Of a stretch of DNA of 29,388 bases, positions 5,299 through 27,717 are shown in pieces. Location: positions 1 to 29,388 of the IMG/VR virus record IMGVR_UViG_3300022698_000381, one strand, 5' to 3'. Below the pieces are notes generated by a model, which saw only the letters and a list, made by a program, of their open reading frames with translations, was not told where the DNA came from and did no database searches. Every line of letters begins with the position of its first letter. Positions within the stretch are counted from its first letter, which is position 1. A program made the translations under genes and the position numbers. Source of the stretch: a virus.

Positions 5299-5838
5299 TT
5301 AATCCAATTTTGCCAGAATTTCCCTAAAATTTAAAGGGCAATTTACAGTTTTTAGGGTGTCTTTGTGCTCTGAAAACCATTTTTTTATCTCTTTTATCAA
5401 AATCTGCATTTTATATCCGCTAAAACGCCCTGTTGAAGTGAAACGCCCTCTAATCCGCTTTAAATTCATTTTTGAAGCACCGAAACCGTTTTCGCAGGTA
5501 TATTTTAGGATTTCTCTGGCCTCCCTGGAAAGCTGCAAAAAAGCAGAAAGAATATATAAATATTCAGACTCCGCACATTTATACTCAATATCAGGGAACT
5601 CTTCTAAAAAATAAGTACTCTCAATCGATTCTCTTCTTATAATATTTTTGAATCCGTTATTCATGATTCTGTTAAAATATGTACGAAAACCCGCTTTGTC
5701 TTTCTCAAACCGATCAAGGGCCTTCAGAAAAAACAAAAAACCTTCTTGGTAAAAATCTTCTTGGGATTGTTTAGAATTCTTAGCATATCTGTAGGATGCT
5801 GCCCTTACCATATCCCTATAATCTTCAAATTGTTCCAT
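5299..5838 (-). CDS. Sigma-70 region 2-like protein
   Basis: About 179 aa from MEQFEDYRD. Residues about 8-62 (MVRAASYRYAKNS, QEDFYQEGFLFFLKALDRF, FRTYFNRIMNNGFKNIIRRE) match sigma-70 region 2, which grips the polymerase clamp helices and the -10 element. The later part (LSREAREILKYTCENGFG ... GYKMQILIKEIKKWF) follows a pattern seen in phage sigma-like proteins. There is no canonical region 4; that domain is on the 216-812 protein. No SD precedes either possible start (5844 or 5838). A promoter (5845-5873) places the transcript start at about 5838, so the mRNA may be leaderless. A role as a T4 gp55-like late sigma is inference. Confidence 0.75.
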   Translation of the reverse strand: MEQFEDYRDMVRAASYRYAKNSKQSQEDFYQEGFLFFLKALDRFEKDKAGFRTYFNRIMNNGFKNIIRRESIESTYFLEEFPDIEYKCAESEYLYILSAFLQLSREAREILKYTCENGFGASKMNLKRIRGRFTSTGRFSGYKMQILIKEIKKWFSEHKDTLKTVNCPLNFREILAKLD

Positions 5839-5844
5839 AATCAT

Positions 5845-10740: not shown

Positions 10741-11643
10741 TTATTCTGGAAAAAGTGACATGAAACAAGCCAGCGTAAGTCCAGCCCTCCCATTGTTATA
10801 AAAAGGCTTCCTGAATTCGTAAATAACTTGTGCTGCAGAATCATCCTTTTTCCCAGACAACAAAACAGAGTTCATATATCCTAAAACCGCATAACGAACA
10901 CTTTCAACATCTTTATCTTTGATTTGTTTCAGAATCTTAGCACAATCAGACCAACTAAACCCTTTTAATAACCCCCTACACAAATCAATTATTTCTTTGT
11001 CCTCTTCATCTCCTACTTCAATTATTTTAAGTGCTTTTTTTGTTTCAACCCCCAGAACCTTTTCAAGCAAAACTATTGCCTTTCTAGCCGATCCCATACA
11101 ATTTTCTGATATTTTTTCTAATACAATTTCATCAATATCAGCTTTCTCACTCTGAATAATTTTTGAAATTATTTTATAAATTTGTGCATTTGAAAGAAAA
11201 TCAAACTTATACTTTTTACTTCTTGTCTGTATAGCAGAAGGAATTTTCTTTTCTTCTGTAGTGCAAATAAAATAATAAACAAAATCAGGGACATCTTCAA
11301 AAGGCTTTAGCATGGCATTCCAAAAATCTGACGTGCATTTATGTGCCTCATCAATAATATAAACAACTTTATCTTTTAATAACGGTTTATATTTTGTTGA
11401 TTCAATTATTTCTCTTGCTGTATCAATACCCCTATTATTTGCTGAATTATATTCTTCGACAACCGCGCCAATCATTGACGCACAAATTCTTGCCGCAGTA
11501 GTTTTTCCACAACCACTAGGGCCTGTAAAAAGAAAAACATGTGAACGATTTTCTACAAACTGCGTTTCTAAGCTTTTTATTTGATCTCTATTTCCTACCA
11601 TATCCTTAAAAGTCTTTGGCCTGTACTTAATATATAAACTCAA
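10741..11643 (-). CDS. Clamp loader ATPase (DnaX/gp44-like)
   Basis: 300 aa, read from a TTG at 11643 with AGGAGG 6 nt upstream; it overlaps the polymerase stop as TTGA. The start LSLYIKYRPKTFKDMVG is the classic clamp-loader beginning. Walker A is GPSGCGKT (41-48), Walker B VVYIIDEAHK (93-102), and sensor 1 FICTTEEKKIP leads into a TRSKKYKF element close to the SRC motif. This AAA+ subunit would load the sliding clamp encoded at 14186-15283 onto primed DNA. No separate delta-type subunit was seen in the window. Confidence 0.9.
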   Translation of the reverse strand: MSLYIKYRPKTFKDMVGNRDQIKSLETQFVENRSHVFLFTGPSGCGKTTAARICASMIGAVVEEYNSANNRGIDTAREIIESTKYKPLLKDKVVYIIDEAHKCTSDFWNAMLKPFEDVPDFVYYFICTTEEKKIPSAIQTRSKKYKFDFLSNAQIYKIISKIIQSEKADIDEIVLEKISENCMGSARKAIVLLEKVLGVETKKALKIIEVGDEEDKEIIDLCRGLLKGFSWSDCAKILKQIKDKDVESVRYAVLGYMNSVLLSGKKDDSAAQVIYEFRKPFYNNGRAGLTLACFMSLFPE

Positions 11644-14192
11644 AATTTTCCTCCTTTCAAAATTCCACAATCAGTCATCTCCGACCAATTACCATTCACT
11701 TCTGATCTTTCCTTTTCAATTTTCAAAGGTACCATTATCCAATCCCAATATTCCCTAATTTTCTTTGTACCATATTCAAAAACAATGCTGTCTATCTCAT
11801 CTTCTTCTTCTGGATGCACGTCCATTACAAGAGCATCGTGTATTTGCCCAATTATTTTACTTCTTTTAATTTTTCTCTTTTTGAGCTCCTTCGAAACTCG
11901 AATTAAAGTCCATAAAAGACAATGAAAAGCAGAACCCTGTATAGGATAATTACAAAGTTCATTCTTAGTCATATATCCTTGATATTTAAAGCCCGTGTAA
12001 GAATTTACAAATCCTCTTTTCAAATATTTATTATAAAAATCCTTTTTCCAATTAGCATACACAGAAAATTTTTCCCATAAAGAATATTCCACCTGACGCA
12101 CATGTTCAATAAAATCAAAAAAATCACAAATGCCTTTTTCTTTTAAGGATGCTTTTGTATAATCAGGCATGTCTTCCCAGAGACTTGGAGCAATTTTTAC
12201 ATAGTAATCTCCATAAAACTCTGCAAAAACAAAATCATTTTTAGCCACAAACCTTTCTACAGAATCAATATCCTCTTTAAGAAATAAAAGTTCTGCCTGG
12301 TCCCTGTGCATATCAGCACCTTCACTAATAATATAATCAATCAATACAGGGTCTTTATTATAACAGGCTGATATACAAACTTCCAATTGCTTATAATCAT
12401 ATTCAATCAACCGATTACTTTCTCTTGGCACAATAACTTTTCTTATGATTTTTTTTACTTCCTTATCCCTCTTAGGGATGTTTTGGAAGTTAGGAGAAGA
12501 CGAAGAAGATCTAAAAGTATCTGTAGTATATAACTGATAAAAAGGATGTATAAAACCATCCACAACTTCCCTTCTAAATTGATCTATATAATCAGCAGCT
12601 TTATCCCATCTTTTCCACTCCAAAATATCTTTTACAAAAGGAAAATCAATTTTTGACAAAGCTTCTTTATCTAGCTTGGGCGCTCCTGTAGGTGTAAGAT
12701 TGTTTTTATCCTTTTTAACTTTAAGTATATCAAAAAGAAGATGCTGCAAATCAGCAGGACTTGTATACTTAAACCTTTTCTTTCTATCCCATTTCTTAAC
12801 TTGATCAGACATTCTTATCTTTTCATCTAATCCAACAAGCTTTTCTTCTATCTTTATCTTTGTCTTATTAATAAGATCAACATCAACTCTAATTCCATCC
12901 AATTGCGCCTTTGCCAAATACTTGCTTCCTTCAATAAGCAACCCCAGGCCCTTTTTCTGCCTTTCACTCAATGCACCACAAAAAAACTCATACAATTTAT
13001 AGCACAAAAGGGAATCCAAACCATTATAAAGCAATACATCATTTAAAGGGGCTTCATCAATGCGATTAAAAGAATTATCTGATTTTTTATTTTCTCCTGA
13101 TTTTTTTGATTTTAAATAAACATCAACAGATTCATCGTATCCAAGAATTCCAAAAAGAATATAAGACCAATATTTTAACCCCTTCCTTCTCTTATTATGA
13201 AAACAATGGGCAGCTAACATAGTATCAAAATTATTAACACCCATAGAATATCCAAAACAAACAGTTGTCCACATAGACTCAAAAGGGAAATTATGTGCAA
13301 TTTTCAAAGAATCATTTTTTTGTACTTCCCGCCATTTAGCCCTAAATTCTTCATCTTCAAAATTAGGAAATGCAAAAGAAAATAATCCATTTGAAAAAGA
13401 AATAGTTCTTATCTTATGCCCTTCCCTTTGTGGTTTAATGCCTGTAGTTTCATAATCTTCAGCAATAACAGAATTCTGCAATGCATGTTCTTCTATAACC
13501 TTTACAGCTTTTTCTTTATCTTTGATTACAAAAACATCAGAAATATAATTATGGCCGTAAAAAGAAGTTTGGCATTTTTCTATAATATTCCTTAGCCCTC
13601 TCTTAAATTCATTATGTAAAGACACATTACCTTCATTTCTTACTCCAACATAAGAAGGATGATTCAAAACACCAACCCACATATTTAAATTTTGATCAGG
13701 AATACAACATCCAACAAAATCTTTAAAAGAATGTCCAGATAAATGCCTCCTTATTCTCCATCCTAAAAGACTATTAAATGCAATAGCTCCTAAAAGGATG
13801 ATCCCTTTTGGTTCCAATTCCTTAATTGTTTTTAATAAATTCTGTCTGCAAGCCTCAATTTCATTATTTTTTGGTGTTCTGTTATGTGGTGGTCTGCATA
13901 ACACAGCGTTTGTCTTCCAAAAATCTGCATCTAAATCATATCCCAAACCATCCAACACCCCTCTAAAATAAATTCCAGCATCACCTACTAATGGAATCCC
14001 TTGAGAATCCTCAACCCTACCAGGAGCTTCTGCAACAAACAAAATACCCAAACCCCCTTTTCCATGTCTTTTCATTTTTGGGGTTTTGCAAGAAGAGAAA
14101 AGCCCGCAAGTAGGACACCCAACAGGCTTTATCTTTTTTTCAAGGACTGTGTCTCCCTCTCCTCCCAAAAAAAACGCCTCTTGCTTCAACAT
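11640..14192 (-). CDS. Uracil-DNA glycosylase-DNA polymerase A fusion
   Basis: 850 aa. Residues ~20-205 are a family 4-type uracil-DNA glycosylase: 4Fe-4S ligand pattern Cys26-x2-Cys29 plus Cys99 and Cys115, AEAPGRVED (54-62), PLVGDAG (67-73), CRPPHNRTP and NHPS (177-180). Residues ~220-400 are a 3'-5' exonuclease (DYETTG with Asp246/Glu248; HNFPFE 300-305; Y389...D393). The rest is a family A polymerase: motif A EYDYKQLE (Asp599), motif B R647 to FYG (~661) and motif C IHDALV (Asp786, with Ala where Pol I has Glu883). SPO1-like phages have a similar fused architecture. The start overlaps the clamp stop by 7 nt. It is the replicative polymerase, possibly scanning for uracil. Confidence 0.9.
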   Translation of the reverse strand: MLKQEAFFLGGEGDTVLEKKIKPVGCPTCGLFSSCKTPKMKRHGKGGLGILFVAEAPGRVEDSQGIPLVGDAGIYFRGVLDGLGYDLDADFWKTNAVLCRPPHNRTPKNNEIEACRQNLLKTIKELEPKGIILLGAIAFNSLLGWRIRRHLSGHSFKDFVGCCIPDQNLNMWVGVLNHPSYVGVRNEGNVSLHNEFKRGLRNIIEKCQTSFYGHNYISDVFVIKDKEKAVKVIEEHALQNSVIAEDYETTGIKPQREGHKIRTISFSNGLFSFAFPNFEDEEFRAKWREVQKNDSLKIAHNFPFESMWTTVCFGYSMGVNNFDTMLAAHCFHNKRRKGLKYWSYILFGILGYDESVDVYLKSKKSGENKKSDNSFNRIDEAPLNDVLLYNGLDSLLCYKLYEFFCGALSERQKKGLGLLIEGSKYLAKAQLDGIRVDVDLINKTKIKIEEKLVGLDEKIRMSDQVKKWDRKKRFKYTSPADLQHLLFDILKVKKDKNNLTPTGAPKLDKEALSKIDFPFVKDILEWKRWDKAADYIDQFRREVVDGFIHPFYQLYTTDTFRSSSSSPNFQNIPKRDKEVKKIIRKVIVPRESNRLIEYDYKQLEVCISACYNKDPVLIDYIISEGADMHRDQAELLFLKEDIDSVERFVAKNDFVFAEFYGDYYVKIAPSLWEDMPDYTKASLKEKGICDFFDFIEHVRQVEYSLWEKFSVYANWKKDFYNKYLKRGFVNSYTGFKYQGYMTKNELCNYPIQGSAFHCLLWTLIRVSKELKKRKIKRSKIIGQIHDALVMDVHPEEEDEIDSIVFEYGTKKIREYWDWIMVPLKIEKERSEVNGNWSEMTDCGILKGGKF

Positions 14193-24655: not shown

Positions 24656-25991
24656 TAAATTTTGTTTCATACCCATGCACCAAATTCAAAAGACAATCAG
24701 GCTCTAATTCTATATTATGATTAGATTTAACCCATTCAACAAATAATTTCCATGTTTTGTTTCCATACCCAAAGTGTCCCACAGTCCAGGATGATTTCCA
24801 TGTCTCCCTAAACTGATCTATTAAATCCAGAAGGTGTGTAAATGTAGCCACTTTCGAATTCCAATCAACTCCCGACATTTGATTATATCTATAAAGTATA
24901 TCATTAACTTCATCGTACCAATTTTTCAAAATCGACAGTTTGGGCCAAAATTTATTCCCATCCCAGCCTAATTCATCTCTCATGCTTTCAGCAAATTCAT
25001 AATCATCTTTATCAAGAGATTCTATAATTTTCTTTGTTATAACATTTTGTGTCTCTTTAGGCTCATTAAATATACAATAGAGAAGCCATGATTTTTTTGT
25101 CTTATAATTATAACAAAAATCGGCCACCGACTTAGTCAAACAACGCTTATCAAAAGGCCAAAACCCTTCTTTCATCATAGCAGCATAATTTTTTACAGCA
25201 CCTATAATAATAGGCTCAAGTTTATCAGAAGGAATCATCTCGAATGATCCAGTTTTTTCCCTCCTGCTCAAAAGATTATCAAAATCAATCCCGTTTTTTT
25301 CCACCCATGTTGGATCAAACAAATATTTCTCCTTAAGGGAGCCGTCCTGCAAAGCAGCAAGGAAATCCTCCGCCTTAAAATATGTTTTTGTTGTCTTATC
25401 ACTTTCAGGAAGTTTATTTTTAAACTTTGCTAGTTTCTTAGCTCTTTTTATCACTTTCAGAAAATATTCATTTGGAGATCGTTTTGAATCCCGTAGGGAT
25501 TCTTTACTCTTAGTTTCTGAGTTATTGGTATTAGAGTAACATTGTATTCTAGTCTTTGTTTCCACTTTTGGGGAGGGACCCTTTCTCCCTATTGGAGGGG
25601 GGGTCCCCTTCTTATCGGGAGAGTGGGGTATCTTTTTTTGAGGAGAGTGATTGGTATTAGAAACAAGATCCGAGTACGCTTTTTCTGTCAATCTATAATA
25701 TGTGTATACACCATCAGCACCTCTTTCCAGGTGCATGTCTAATATCCCCTTCTCAACTAGAATTTTAAGTCTCTTTGCAAGAGCATTTCTGTTTTTTATA
25801 CCTAAAATCGGCATTTCATCTATAATATTTTGATAAAAAAACCAAAAAAATGTCTTGTTCTCATAGATGATGCTATTCATCTTCCCGCTTGAAATGAAAT
25901 TCATCATAAATCGCAGCAGAACAGCGTCTTTTGCATCTAATCCATTTTTAATTAGACCCGCTTGTGAAAACCCTTCGATACAATATTGCAT
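24642..25991 (-). CDS. Replication-initiator-like protein
   Basis: 449 aa. Residues about 20-105 look like a winged-helix initiator domain (LDAKDAVLLRFMMNFISSG, then RNALAKRLKILVEKGILDMH). A Pro/Ser-rich linker (about 110-185) joins a helical C-terminal domain (about 185-449) with WPFDKRCLTKSVADFCYNY. Lambda O and several plasmid/phage initiators have this split shape: DNA-binding N-terminus, linker, then a helicase-recruiting C-terminus. The DNA for the linker carries origin-like repeats (25486-25661). GGAGG lies 4 nt before ATG. It heads the replication operon, behind a long inverted repeat. Family not proven. Confidence 0.6.
   Translation of the reverse strand: MQYCIEGFSQAGLIKNGLDAKDAVLLRFMMNFISSGKMNSIIYENKTFFWFFYQNIIDEMPILGIKNRNALAKRLKILVEKGILDMHLERGADGVYTYYRLTEKAYSDLVSNTNHSPQKKIPHSPDKKGTPPPIGRKGPSPKVETKTRIQCYSNTNNSETKSKESLRDSKRSPNEYFLKVIKRAKKLAKFKNKLPESDKTTKTYFKAEDFLAALQDGSLKEKYLFDPTWVEKNGIDFDNLLSRREKTGSFEMIPSDKLEPIIIGAVKNYAAMMKEGFWPFDKRCLTKSVADFCYNYKTKKSWLLYCIFNEPKETQNVITKKIIESLDKDDYEFAESMRDELGWDGNKFWPKLSILKNWYDEVNDILYRYNQMSGVDWNSKVATFTHLLDLIDQFRETWKSSWTVGHFGYGNKTWKLFVEWVKSNHNIELEPDCLLNLVHGYETKFKKTY
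25486..25661. other. Origin-like repeat cluster inside the initiator gene
   Basis: Three structures overlap the linker coding region. GAGTTATTGGTATTAGA (25519-25535) recurs as 25645-25661 with one mismatch. GGAGAGTG occurs at 25618-25625 and 25642-25649. GGGACCC (25575-25581) pairs with GGGTCCC (25601-25607) in a G/C-rich hairpin. GAATCCC-GTA-GGGATTC (25486-25502) is a perfect inverted repeat. Lambda ori lies in the equivalent part of its O gene. No adjacent long AT-rich unwinding run was measured. Confidence 0.4.
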
Positions 25992-26007
25992 ATAACCTCC
26001 AATAAAA

Positions 26008-26089
26008 AACCCTTTACAGGGAGGAAGGGCTGTCAGAAAATAGGCAACAAAACAAAATCCTAAAATCTGCTTCCCCCCTGTAAAGGGTT
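26008..26089. repeat. 20-bp inverted repeat with 42-bp loop in the initiator leader
   Basis: Arms AACCCTTTACAGGGAGGAAG (26008-26027) and its complement at 26070-26089 differ at one base. It lies in the leader of the initiator gene, ending 17 nt from its ATG. Inside the loop CAACAAAACAAAA could instead pair with the T-rich GTTTTGTTTT downstream on the plus strand, so competing structures are possible. It might be a terminator, an attenuator or an origin element. Confidence 0.5.
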
Positions 26090-26152
26090 GTTTTTGTTTT
26101 GTTTTTTCAAAAAAAACACAGCCTTCTTAAGGATTGCATAAATTTAATATTT

Positions 26153-26171
26153 AGTCAATATTTTATTGACT
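26153..26171. promoter_or_regulatory. Palindromic operator between outward-facing -35 boxes
   Basis: GTCAATA-TTT-TATTGAC (26154-26170) is a perfect 7-bp inverted repeat. Each arm ends in a TTGACT reading outward, at 26166-26171 on the plus strand and 26153-26158 on the minus strand. A dimeric repressor here could control both directions. The plus-strand side has a good -10; the minus side does not. Confidence 0.5.
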
Positions 26172-26194
26172 TTTTTTATGTTTTTGTTTATATT
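26166..26194 (+). promoter_or_regulatory. Promoter for candidate small RNA
   Basis: TTGACT (26166-26171) and TATATT (26189-26194) are separated by exactly 17 bp. Initiation would be near 26201, right at the base of the first hairpin. The -35 overlaps the operator palindrome. Confidence 0.65.
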
Positions 26195-26200
26195 TTGAAC

Positions 26201-26269
26201 AGCTGAACCCTTCAGCTATCATCATCCCTTGATCTTTGCAGGACATTCTTATTGGATGTCCTGCTTTTT
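26201..26269 (+). ncRNA. Candidate small RNA with two hairpins
   Basis: A non-coding stretch framed by a promoter (26166-26194) and a strong terminator. It opens with a 5' hairpin, AGCTGAA-CCC-TTCAGCT (26201-26217), continues with a ~20-nt single-stranded linker (26218-26237), and closes with the 9-bp terminator stem (26238-26264) and T5. There is no reading frame with an SD inside. The next promoter begins at 26272, so this is a self-contained transcription unit of about 69 nt. The linker is complementary to the ribosome-binding site of the gene at 26647. I know no named RNA family for it. Confidence 0.55.
26238..26269 (+). terminator. Rho-independent terminator of the small RNA
   Basis: GCAGGACAT (26238-26246) and ATGTCCTGC (26256-26264) are perfect complements around a 9-nt loop, followed by TTTTT. 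This is the best terminator in the window. Confidence 0.8.
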
Positions 26270-26271
26270 AC

Positions 26272-26300
26272 TTGACAAAATTGTGAGAAGGGTTTATATT
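26272..26300 (+). promoter_or_regulatory. Promoter of the 26325-27717 genes
   Basis: TTGACA (26272-26277) and TATATT (26295-26300) are 17 bp apart. The start would be near 26307, followed by AAGGAGG before ATG 26325. It begins directly after the small-RNA terminator. Confidence 0.8.
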
Positions 26301-26324: not shown

Positions 26325-26636
26325 ATGGTAAAAGATACTGATTTTTGGTATATTCTGGAAAGTTTAAAGGAACTGGCTGTTTGGATTTATAAATCTCCAA
26401 TTCCTGAAAAGGATAAAGAATCAAAAATTTTTTCTATTTTTGAGGATTTTCGTGTTGTTGGAAAGGAAAGATATTTTTCCTATAAAGAATGCACAAATAC
26501 CGATGAAAAAGGAGAAGTTTGTTTTGAAGTTATGAATATAGAAAAAAAGGGAGAAAATTGTTTTTTTGTTTGTCCAAGATGCGGACATACAGTTAAAGCT
26601 ATAAGAGTATATACATATACTCTGGCAGATGATTAA
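26325..26636 (+). CDS. Small Cys-rich protein with zinc-ribbon tail (103 aa)
   Basis: ATG 26325 is set by AAAGGAGG 4 nt upstream and by the promoter; an earlier ATG would lie upstream of the predicted transcript start. The N-terminal ~50 residues are helical (FWYILESLKELAVWIYKSPI). The C-terminal half has Cys56, Cys66, Cys79 and CPRCGH (Cys83, Cys86, His88), consistent with a single zinc ribbon. The stop (TAA 26634-26636) sits inside the next gene's SD area. A small regulator or adaptor is plausible, but no family is recognised. Confidence 0.65.
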   Translation: MVKDTDFWYILESLKELAVWIYKSPIPEKDKESKIFSIFEDFRVVGKERYFSYKECTNTDEKGEVCFEVMNIEKKGENCFFVCPRCGHTVKAIRVYTYTLADD

Positions 26637-26646
26637 GGAGGATGAT

Positions 26647-27717
26647 ATGATAGCTTACAAAGTTTTTGATAAGAATTTTTGTTGTAGGGGTTTTCAGTAT
26701 AAAGTAGGGAAAACATATGAAATAGATAAAAGTCCAATTCTATGTGAAGAGGGATTTCATGCATGTAAAAATTTAATTGATTGTTTTTCTTATTATCCAT
26801 TCAATTCAAAGAATAAAGTTGCAATTGTTGAATTGCTTGGAGAAATAAAAGGGGATGAACAAGACAAACAAGTAACAAATAAAATTCGGATAGTCAAAGA
26901 GATTTCTTGGCAAGAAGTTTTATCTATTGTAAATACAGGCAAAAATTGTACTGGAAACAGGAACTCTGGAAACTATAACTCTGGAGACAAGAACTCTGGA
27001 CACTGTAACTCTGGTGACAGGAATTCTGGAGACAAGAACTCTGGAGACAAGAACTCTGGAGACTGGAATTCTGGAGACTGGAATTCTGGAGACTGGAATT
27101 CTGGAAACTGGAATTCTGGAAACAGGAATTCTGGAAACTGGAACTCTGGAAACAGGAACTCTGGAGACAAGAACTCTGGAAACAGGAACTCTGGAGAAAA
27201 GAACTCTGGAAACAGGAACTCTGGACACTGGAACTCTGGACACTGTAACTCTGGAGACAAGAACTCTGGACACTGTAACTCTGGAGACTGGAATTCTGGA
27301 GACAGGAACTCTGGTGACAGGAATTCTGGAGACTGGAACTCTGGAGACAGGAATTCTGGAGACAGGAATTCTGGAGACAGGAACTCTGGAAACTGGAACT
27401 CTGGGAACTGTAACTCTGGTGACTGGAATACAAAAGAACCTGAAAAAGTTTATTTCATGAACACTTTGATTGATAAAAAAGAATTGGATGCTATTAAATG
27501 TTCTGGAGCATATTGTATTTTAAATAGATTTTATCCAGTTAAATTTAGAGTTCGTACTTCATCCGGTAAATTTGGAGATTTTAAATATCTTCCTTTTAAA
27601 AGCTCTTTTAAACATTTTTGGAGAAATCTTTCAATAGATGAAAGAAAGACAATTATAAATATGCCTTACTTTAACAAAAAAGTCTTCTTTGAAATTACAG
27701 GGGTTAAAATAAGTTAA
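26647..27717 (+). CDS. DUF7666-like protein with 31-unit pentapeptide array
   Basis: 356 aa from ATG 26647, with AAGGAGG 5 nt before; an upstream ATG at 26629 would overlap the SD. Residues ~1-95 (YKVFDKNFCCRGFQYKVGK, FHACKNLIDCFSYYP, VAIVELLGEI) match a phage domain I recall as DUF7666. From 26962 the gene encodes 31 NSGxx units, in which only residues 4 and 5 vary (D/N/H/E, then W/R/K/C/Y). This resembles the N-x-G type Pentapeptide_2 repeats, which form elongated beta-helices. A C-terminal ~95-residue domain follows (NTLIDKKELDAIKCSG). It ends adjacent to a convergent gene at 27718. Role unknown; DNA mimicry is one idea. Confidence 0.75.
   Translation: MIAYKVFDKNFCCRGFQYKVGKTYEIDKSPILCEEGFHACKNLIDCFSYYPFNSKNKVAIVELLGEIKGDEQDKQVTNKIRIVKEISWQEVLSIVNTGKNCTGNRNSGNYNSGDKNSGHCNSGDRNSGDKNSGDKNSGDWNSGDWNSGDWNSGNWNSGNRNSGNWNSGNRNSGDKNSGNRNSGEKNSGNRNSGHWNSGHCNSGDKNSGHCNSGDWNSGDRNSGDRNSGDWNSGDRNSGDRNSGDRNSGNWNSGNCNSGDWNTKEPEKVYFMNTLIDKKELDAIKCSGAYCILNRFYPVKFRVRTSSGKFGDFKYLPFKSSFKHFWRNLSIDERKTIINMPYFNKKVFFEITGVKIS
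26962..27426 (+). repeat. Tandem 15-bp repeat array (31 units)
   Basis: 31 consecutive units with AA(C/T)TCTGG(A/T/G) at fixed phase and two variable codons. Ten units carry GAATTC. Serine is always TCT, so the DNA itself is homogenised, not just the protein. Such arrays readily gain or lose units. Confidence 0.95.

Follow-up and report, generated by a model that had tools for sequence, protein, structure and literature searches.

A predicted phage-encoded small RNA with a candidate target at the translation start of a DUF7666/pentapeptide gene

The c4 RNA of phages P1 and P7 is encoded on the same strand as its target, upstream of it, and recognizes the target through short complementary stretches. 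It shares the promoter of the target, is released by processing, and carries its complementary segments in loops. The sar RNA of phage P22 is a unit with a promoter and terminator of its own. It originates from the strand opposite to that of its target, with which it is perfectly complementary. Both RNAs act at the level of translation. The short c4 RNA pairs around the ribosome-binding site of the ant mRNA and blocks its translation, and sar, with a length of 68/69 nt, pairs with the message of a phage gene and thereby prevents initiation of its translation (PMC12197685). The 77-nt OOP RNA of phage lambda comes from a control region beside the replication genes (PMC12197685).

Here, we analyzed a locus that resembles these systems in part. 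It is located on the 29,388-nt viral record IMGVR_UViG_3300022698_000381, which was analyzed over its whole length and is called the window below. An earlier note on this DNA had proposed a self-contained small RNA gene at positions 26201–26269. The −35/−10 pair with 17-bp spacing that it described was present in the sequence and was recovered by a consensus scan. Likewise, the hairpin at the predicted start, the 20-nt linker, and the terminator were all found at their proposed places by sequence and fold (Table 1). The start predicted from promoter P1 lies at approximately position 26201. The predicted RNA folded with a minimum free energy of −27.7 kcal/mol, compared to a mean of −10.4 kcal/mol for shuffled sequences (z = −6.9), and none of 200 shuffles folded equally well. 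The linker was unpaired in the centroid structure. The U-run at the predicted 3′ end comprises only 5 nt, which counts against the proposed regulatory RNA; Hfq-dependent sRNAs are marked by a long 3′ U-run and by binding of Hfq.

Table 1. Predicted features of the control region and the adjoining rightward operon
Feature	Position	Strand	Basis
Palindrome AGTCAATA-TTT-TATTGACT, overlapping the P1 −35 hexamer	26153–26171		Sequence, relaxed minus-strand promoter scan
Promoter P1, TTGACT (26166–26171), 17-nt spacer, TATATT (26189–26194)	26166–26194	+	Consensus scan, 10/12
Predicted small RNA, ~69 nt	26201–26269	+	Sequence, fold, terminator/promoter search
5′ hairpin, 7 bp, CCC loop (AGCUGAA-CCC-UUCAGCU)	26201–26217	+	Fold
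Single-stranded linker AUCAUCAUCCCUUGAUCUUU, 20 nt, proposed target-recognition region	26218–26237	+	Fold, pairing scans
Intrinsic terminator, 11-bp stem and 5-nt loop (26238–26264), T5 (26265–26269)	26238–26269	+	Fold, scans
Promoter P2 of the two-gene rightward operon, TTGACA, 17-nt spacer, TATATT	26272–26300	+	Consensus scan, 11/12
First gene of the rightward operon, 103 aa, CPRC/H zinc-ribbon-like end; weaker candidate target at its SD region (ddG −9.3)	26325–26636	+	
Site predicted to pair with the small RNA; includes SD AAGGAGG and AUG 26647	26625–26653	+	Duplex scans, co-folding
Proposed target gene, DUF7666 domain (PF24703) and pentapeptide repeats	26647–27717	+	Pfam match

Both strands of the 29.4-kb window were searched for terminators with at least 7 bp, at least 4 GC pairs, a short loop, and a T-run. 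The terminator of the predicted RNA was the sole short-loop intrinsic terminator found. Together with P1, it forms the only promoter–terminator pair within 110 nt on either strand (promoter score of at least 10/12), and such pairs were absent from all 60 windows simulated by a Markov-1 model that reproduced the dinucleotide statistics. The large genes from position 216 to 25991 are all oriented leftward, and none to the left of the RNA reads rightward. As every large gene on this side runs leftward, P1 is apparently the only promoter that makes use of the terminator. We conclude that P1 and the terminator probably delimit a dedicated transcription unit, because the terminator is unique in the window, is paired with P1 in a way not reproduced in the simulations, and appears to have no other client gene. 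Thus, there is good evidence for a real small-RNA transcription unit at 26201–26269, whose transcription we infer from the sequence. The self-contained layout claimed for the locus was thereby borne out as an arrangement not expected by chance.

The terminator might, however, be the relevant element by itself, keeping transcription from P1 out of P2 and the rightward operon and leaving the short RNA as a functionless by-product. The terminator is indeed located directly between the two promoters, with P2 beginning 2 bases after the T-run and not 3 as had been noted earlier, and such insulation is often needed in control regions. On the other hand, the small RNA is all that lies between P1 and the terminator, so that P1 would have no other product, and termination requires neither a stable 5′ hairpin nor an open linker. 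We therefore consider a pure insulator or abortive unit unlikely. A coding function was not read in the RNA, because the SD sequence AAAGGAGG immediately precedes ATG 26325 of the downstream gene. The claim that the unit contains no reading frame held in this sense, but the frame of the downstream gene is open back to a TTG at 26229, that is, into the RNA.

The RNA could not be assigned to a described family, as the earlier note had anticipated. None of the families in Rfam 15, which includes phage antisense RNAs, reached its gathering score anywhere in the window, and none matched the plus strand of 26201–26269 at E-values up to 5; a tRNA was not found either. A blastn comparison of the region with phages gave no homologues, the exact terminator pattern did not occur in viral contigs, and searches with the neighboring proteins turned up no close relatives among viral or genome contigs. 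With a profile built from the replication protein, 23 distant loci (L013–L035) were retrieved, in which rep is generally part of a co-oriented operon. Neither a long inverted repeat just upstream of rep nor a comparable control region was seen in these loci, two of which (L013 and L017) were read by eye. L017 (IMGVR_UViG_3300037461_001070), a distant relative, has a replication initiator resembling that of the window; a short distance downstream lies the gene for a DnaB-like helicase that shares 36% identity with its counterpart in the window. A 15-nt match to the predicted RNA start in this phage is not followed by such a hairpin and appears coding-like, and it was taken as chance. Among the relatives of the DUF7666 gene (L004–L011), the gene follows other ORFs in unrelated contexts, and inspection by eye revealed no similar small-RNA unit.

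The small RNA sits in the divergent space between a leftward replication initiator (phrog_270), which starts at position 25991, and the rightward operon. The leftward replication genes further encode polymerase A, a RecA/UvsX-like protein, a DnaB-like helicase, a primase, an SNF2 helicase, and an SbcC-like protein. A single protein encoded at 11640–14192 (−) combines a uracil-DNA-glycosylase-superfamily domain with a family A DNA polymerase carrying an exonuclease domain. The palindrome that overlaps P1 contains a divergent TTGACT in its other arm, which could serve the replication gene as the −35 element of a weak promoter of the extended −10 type. The palindrome itself is a possible operator. 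Palindromes of similar size are fairly common in the window, with 14 observed against 8.4 expected. At 26004–26093, a 24-bp inverted repeat (92%) encloses an interior of 42 nt. Read on the minus strand, the repeat is predicted to form a highly stable hairpin with T6 after it, immediately ahead of the SD sequence of the replication initiator; it might attenuate rep or belong to an origin. An alternative structure is possible through 12 nt of complementarity between 26046–26057 and 26092–26103. A further promoter-like site, TTGACA-17-TATATT, with the hexamers and spacing of P2, is located near the left end of the window and directed leftward (26–55, −).

This setting raises the question of whether transcription from P1 beside the replication gene activates an origin, with the RNA being secondary, as has been discussed for the lambda promoter pO. 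P1 lies between the divergent replication initiator and the rightward operon and close to the inverted repeat, and pO stays important for replication control in lambda (PMC12197685). The origin is, however, putative here, and the inverted repeat is located upstream of P1 and thus outside the P1 transcript, which makes origin activation very unlikely as the main role. An antisense function toward the replication mRNA was dismissed as a leading idea. The best-scoring minus-strand promoter (26158–26130) starts to the left of the RNA, and overlap would require the weaker site at 26326–26298 (9/12), from which a transcript overlapping the small RNA could be made.

Pairing scans pointed to the rightward operon instead. 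All 24 nt of 26216–26239, that is, the linker plus 2 nt of each flanking stem, can pair with 26625–26653 at −24.5 kcal/mol, the only bulges, of 1, 2, and 2 nt, lying in the mRNA. RNAduplex was run over 5,866 windows from the two strands, and no other non-self site was as good (next, −21.0); among 42 gene starts, that of DUF7666 had the most favorable duplex energy (next, −18.4). Upon co-folding, the terminator hairpin was kept and the pairing was nearly unchanged. The Pfam match to DUF7666 begins with residue 7 of the longer ORF, the codon of which is ATG 26647. Within this gene, positions 26951–27500 hold a long run of 15-nt repeats of the pentapeptide type (NSGNW/NSGD...), and related genes occur in unrelated phages.

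The first scan was based on the 24-nt segment. Repeating the statistics on the 20-nt linker proper, with accessibility taken into account, weakened the result. The DUF7666 start still ranked first, but narrowly, with a ddG of −13.4 compared to −13.3 for the start of the sigma-region-2 gene (5299–5844), and several other gene starts reached values of −10 to −11.5. When the linker was replaced by random genomic 20-mers, 13 of 2000 performed equally well; when random genomic 80-mers served as the target, the figure was 11 of 2000. The same ddG was reached by 64 of 2000 simple linker shuffles and by 327 of 2000 shuffles that preserved the dinucleotides. By bare duplex energy, −24.5 kcal/mol was attained by shuffled linkers in 12 of 1500 cases for either adjacent gene and in 31 of 1500 for any of the 42. 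Depending on the null, the p-value for the target thus varies from about 0.005 to 0.16, and for this reason we propose the DUF7666 target as a hypothesis.

The same numbers bear on the possibility that the small RNA is real and has its main target elsewhere, in a host mRNA or in another message of the phage, for example the one for the sigma-region-2 protein. Being rich in pyrimidines, the linker has a fair capacity to pair with SD sequences in general, and the fit to DUF7666 would then reflect this ordinary affinity. The nearly equal ddG at the sigma-region-2 start, the values at the other gene starts, and the frequency with which dinucleotide-shuffled linkers pair equally well all favor such a target, and characterized phage sRNAs often affect host functions (PMC12197685). 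Against it, the best non-self duplex site of the window lies in the adjacent operon and is centered on an SD sequence and AUG. We consider a main target elsewhere somewhat unlikely. The protein encoded at 5299–5844 (−) matches only sigma-70 region 2 and that at 216–812 (−) only sigma-70 region 4, with matches to phrog sigma families; these two separate proteins look like a split phage sigma factor.

Repression of DUF7666 translation is the main role that we tentatively favor for the small RNA, with binding and repression predicted from complementarity. Host or phage-modified RNA polymerase would initiate at P1 and halt at the terminator. The product would be a stable RNA of approximately 69 nt that consists of a hairpin, the open 20-nt linker, and the terminator hairpin. 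Since the RNA and its target are encoded on the same strand, it would act as a separate molecule through imperfect complementarity. Segment 26216–26239 would pair with 26625–26653 on the P2-derived mRNA and cover the SD sequence and AUG of the DUF7666/pentapeptide gene, thereby blocking ribosome binding, and the linked promoters P1 and P2 would set the RNA:mRNA ratio. Together with action on a target elsewhere, this makes a functional small RNA of some kind probable.

In functional terms, the nearest analogues of the predicted RNA are c4 of P1/P7 and sar of P22, a placement made by comparison of their layouts and proposed modes of action. The RNA resembles c4 in its predicted pairing with the ribosome-binding site of a gene that lies downstream in the same orientation, a likeness whose significance depends on the null chosen. 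In contrast to c4, it has its own promoter and terminator, it would pair through a linker flanked by two hairpins, and its proposed target is a DUF7666/pentapeptide gene rather than an antirepressor gene. Whereas c4 is processed from a transcript that it shares with its target, a strong terminator and P2 separate the RNA from its target here. With sar it has in common about the same length, a self-contained gene, and the proposed block of initiation by pairing. It differs from sar in that one strand encodes both the RNA and its proposed target and their pairing is imperfect, and no likely gene overlaps it on the other strand with which it could be perfectly complementary. Like OOP, it is a short RNA from a control region adjoining replication genes; OOP, however, is antisense to cII, whereas the RNA described here overlaps no annotated gene on the opposite strand.

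With its own promoter, an intrinsic terminator, an exposed pairing region, and no ORF, the unit has the properties of phage-encoded base-pairing sRNAs. We assign the predicted RNA at 26201–26269 to this general kind, which is already known, without placing it in a described family. A more specific reading is that a small RNA gene located upstream on the same strand is dedicated to shutting the translation start of the DUF7666/pentapeptide accessory protein, with the paired promoters balancing the two transcripts, and that it may also act on the sigma-region-2 gene. We hold this full combination to be fairly unlikely. To our knowledge, no described phage RNA family combines a self-contained upstream RNA gene on the same strand, a dedicated DUF7666 target, and paired promoters. 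If the proposed function is true, an autonomous trans-acting small RNA would be added to a phage group without a studied member, and the small RNA would have a concrete, testable target. It would also provide a first clue to the timing of the widespread, uncharacterized DUF7666/pentapeptide phage proteins.
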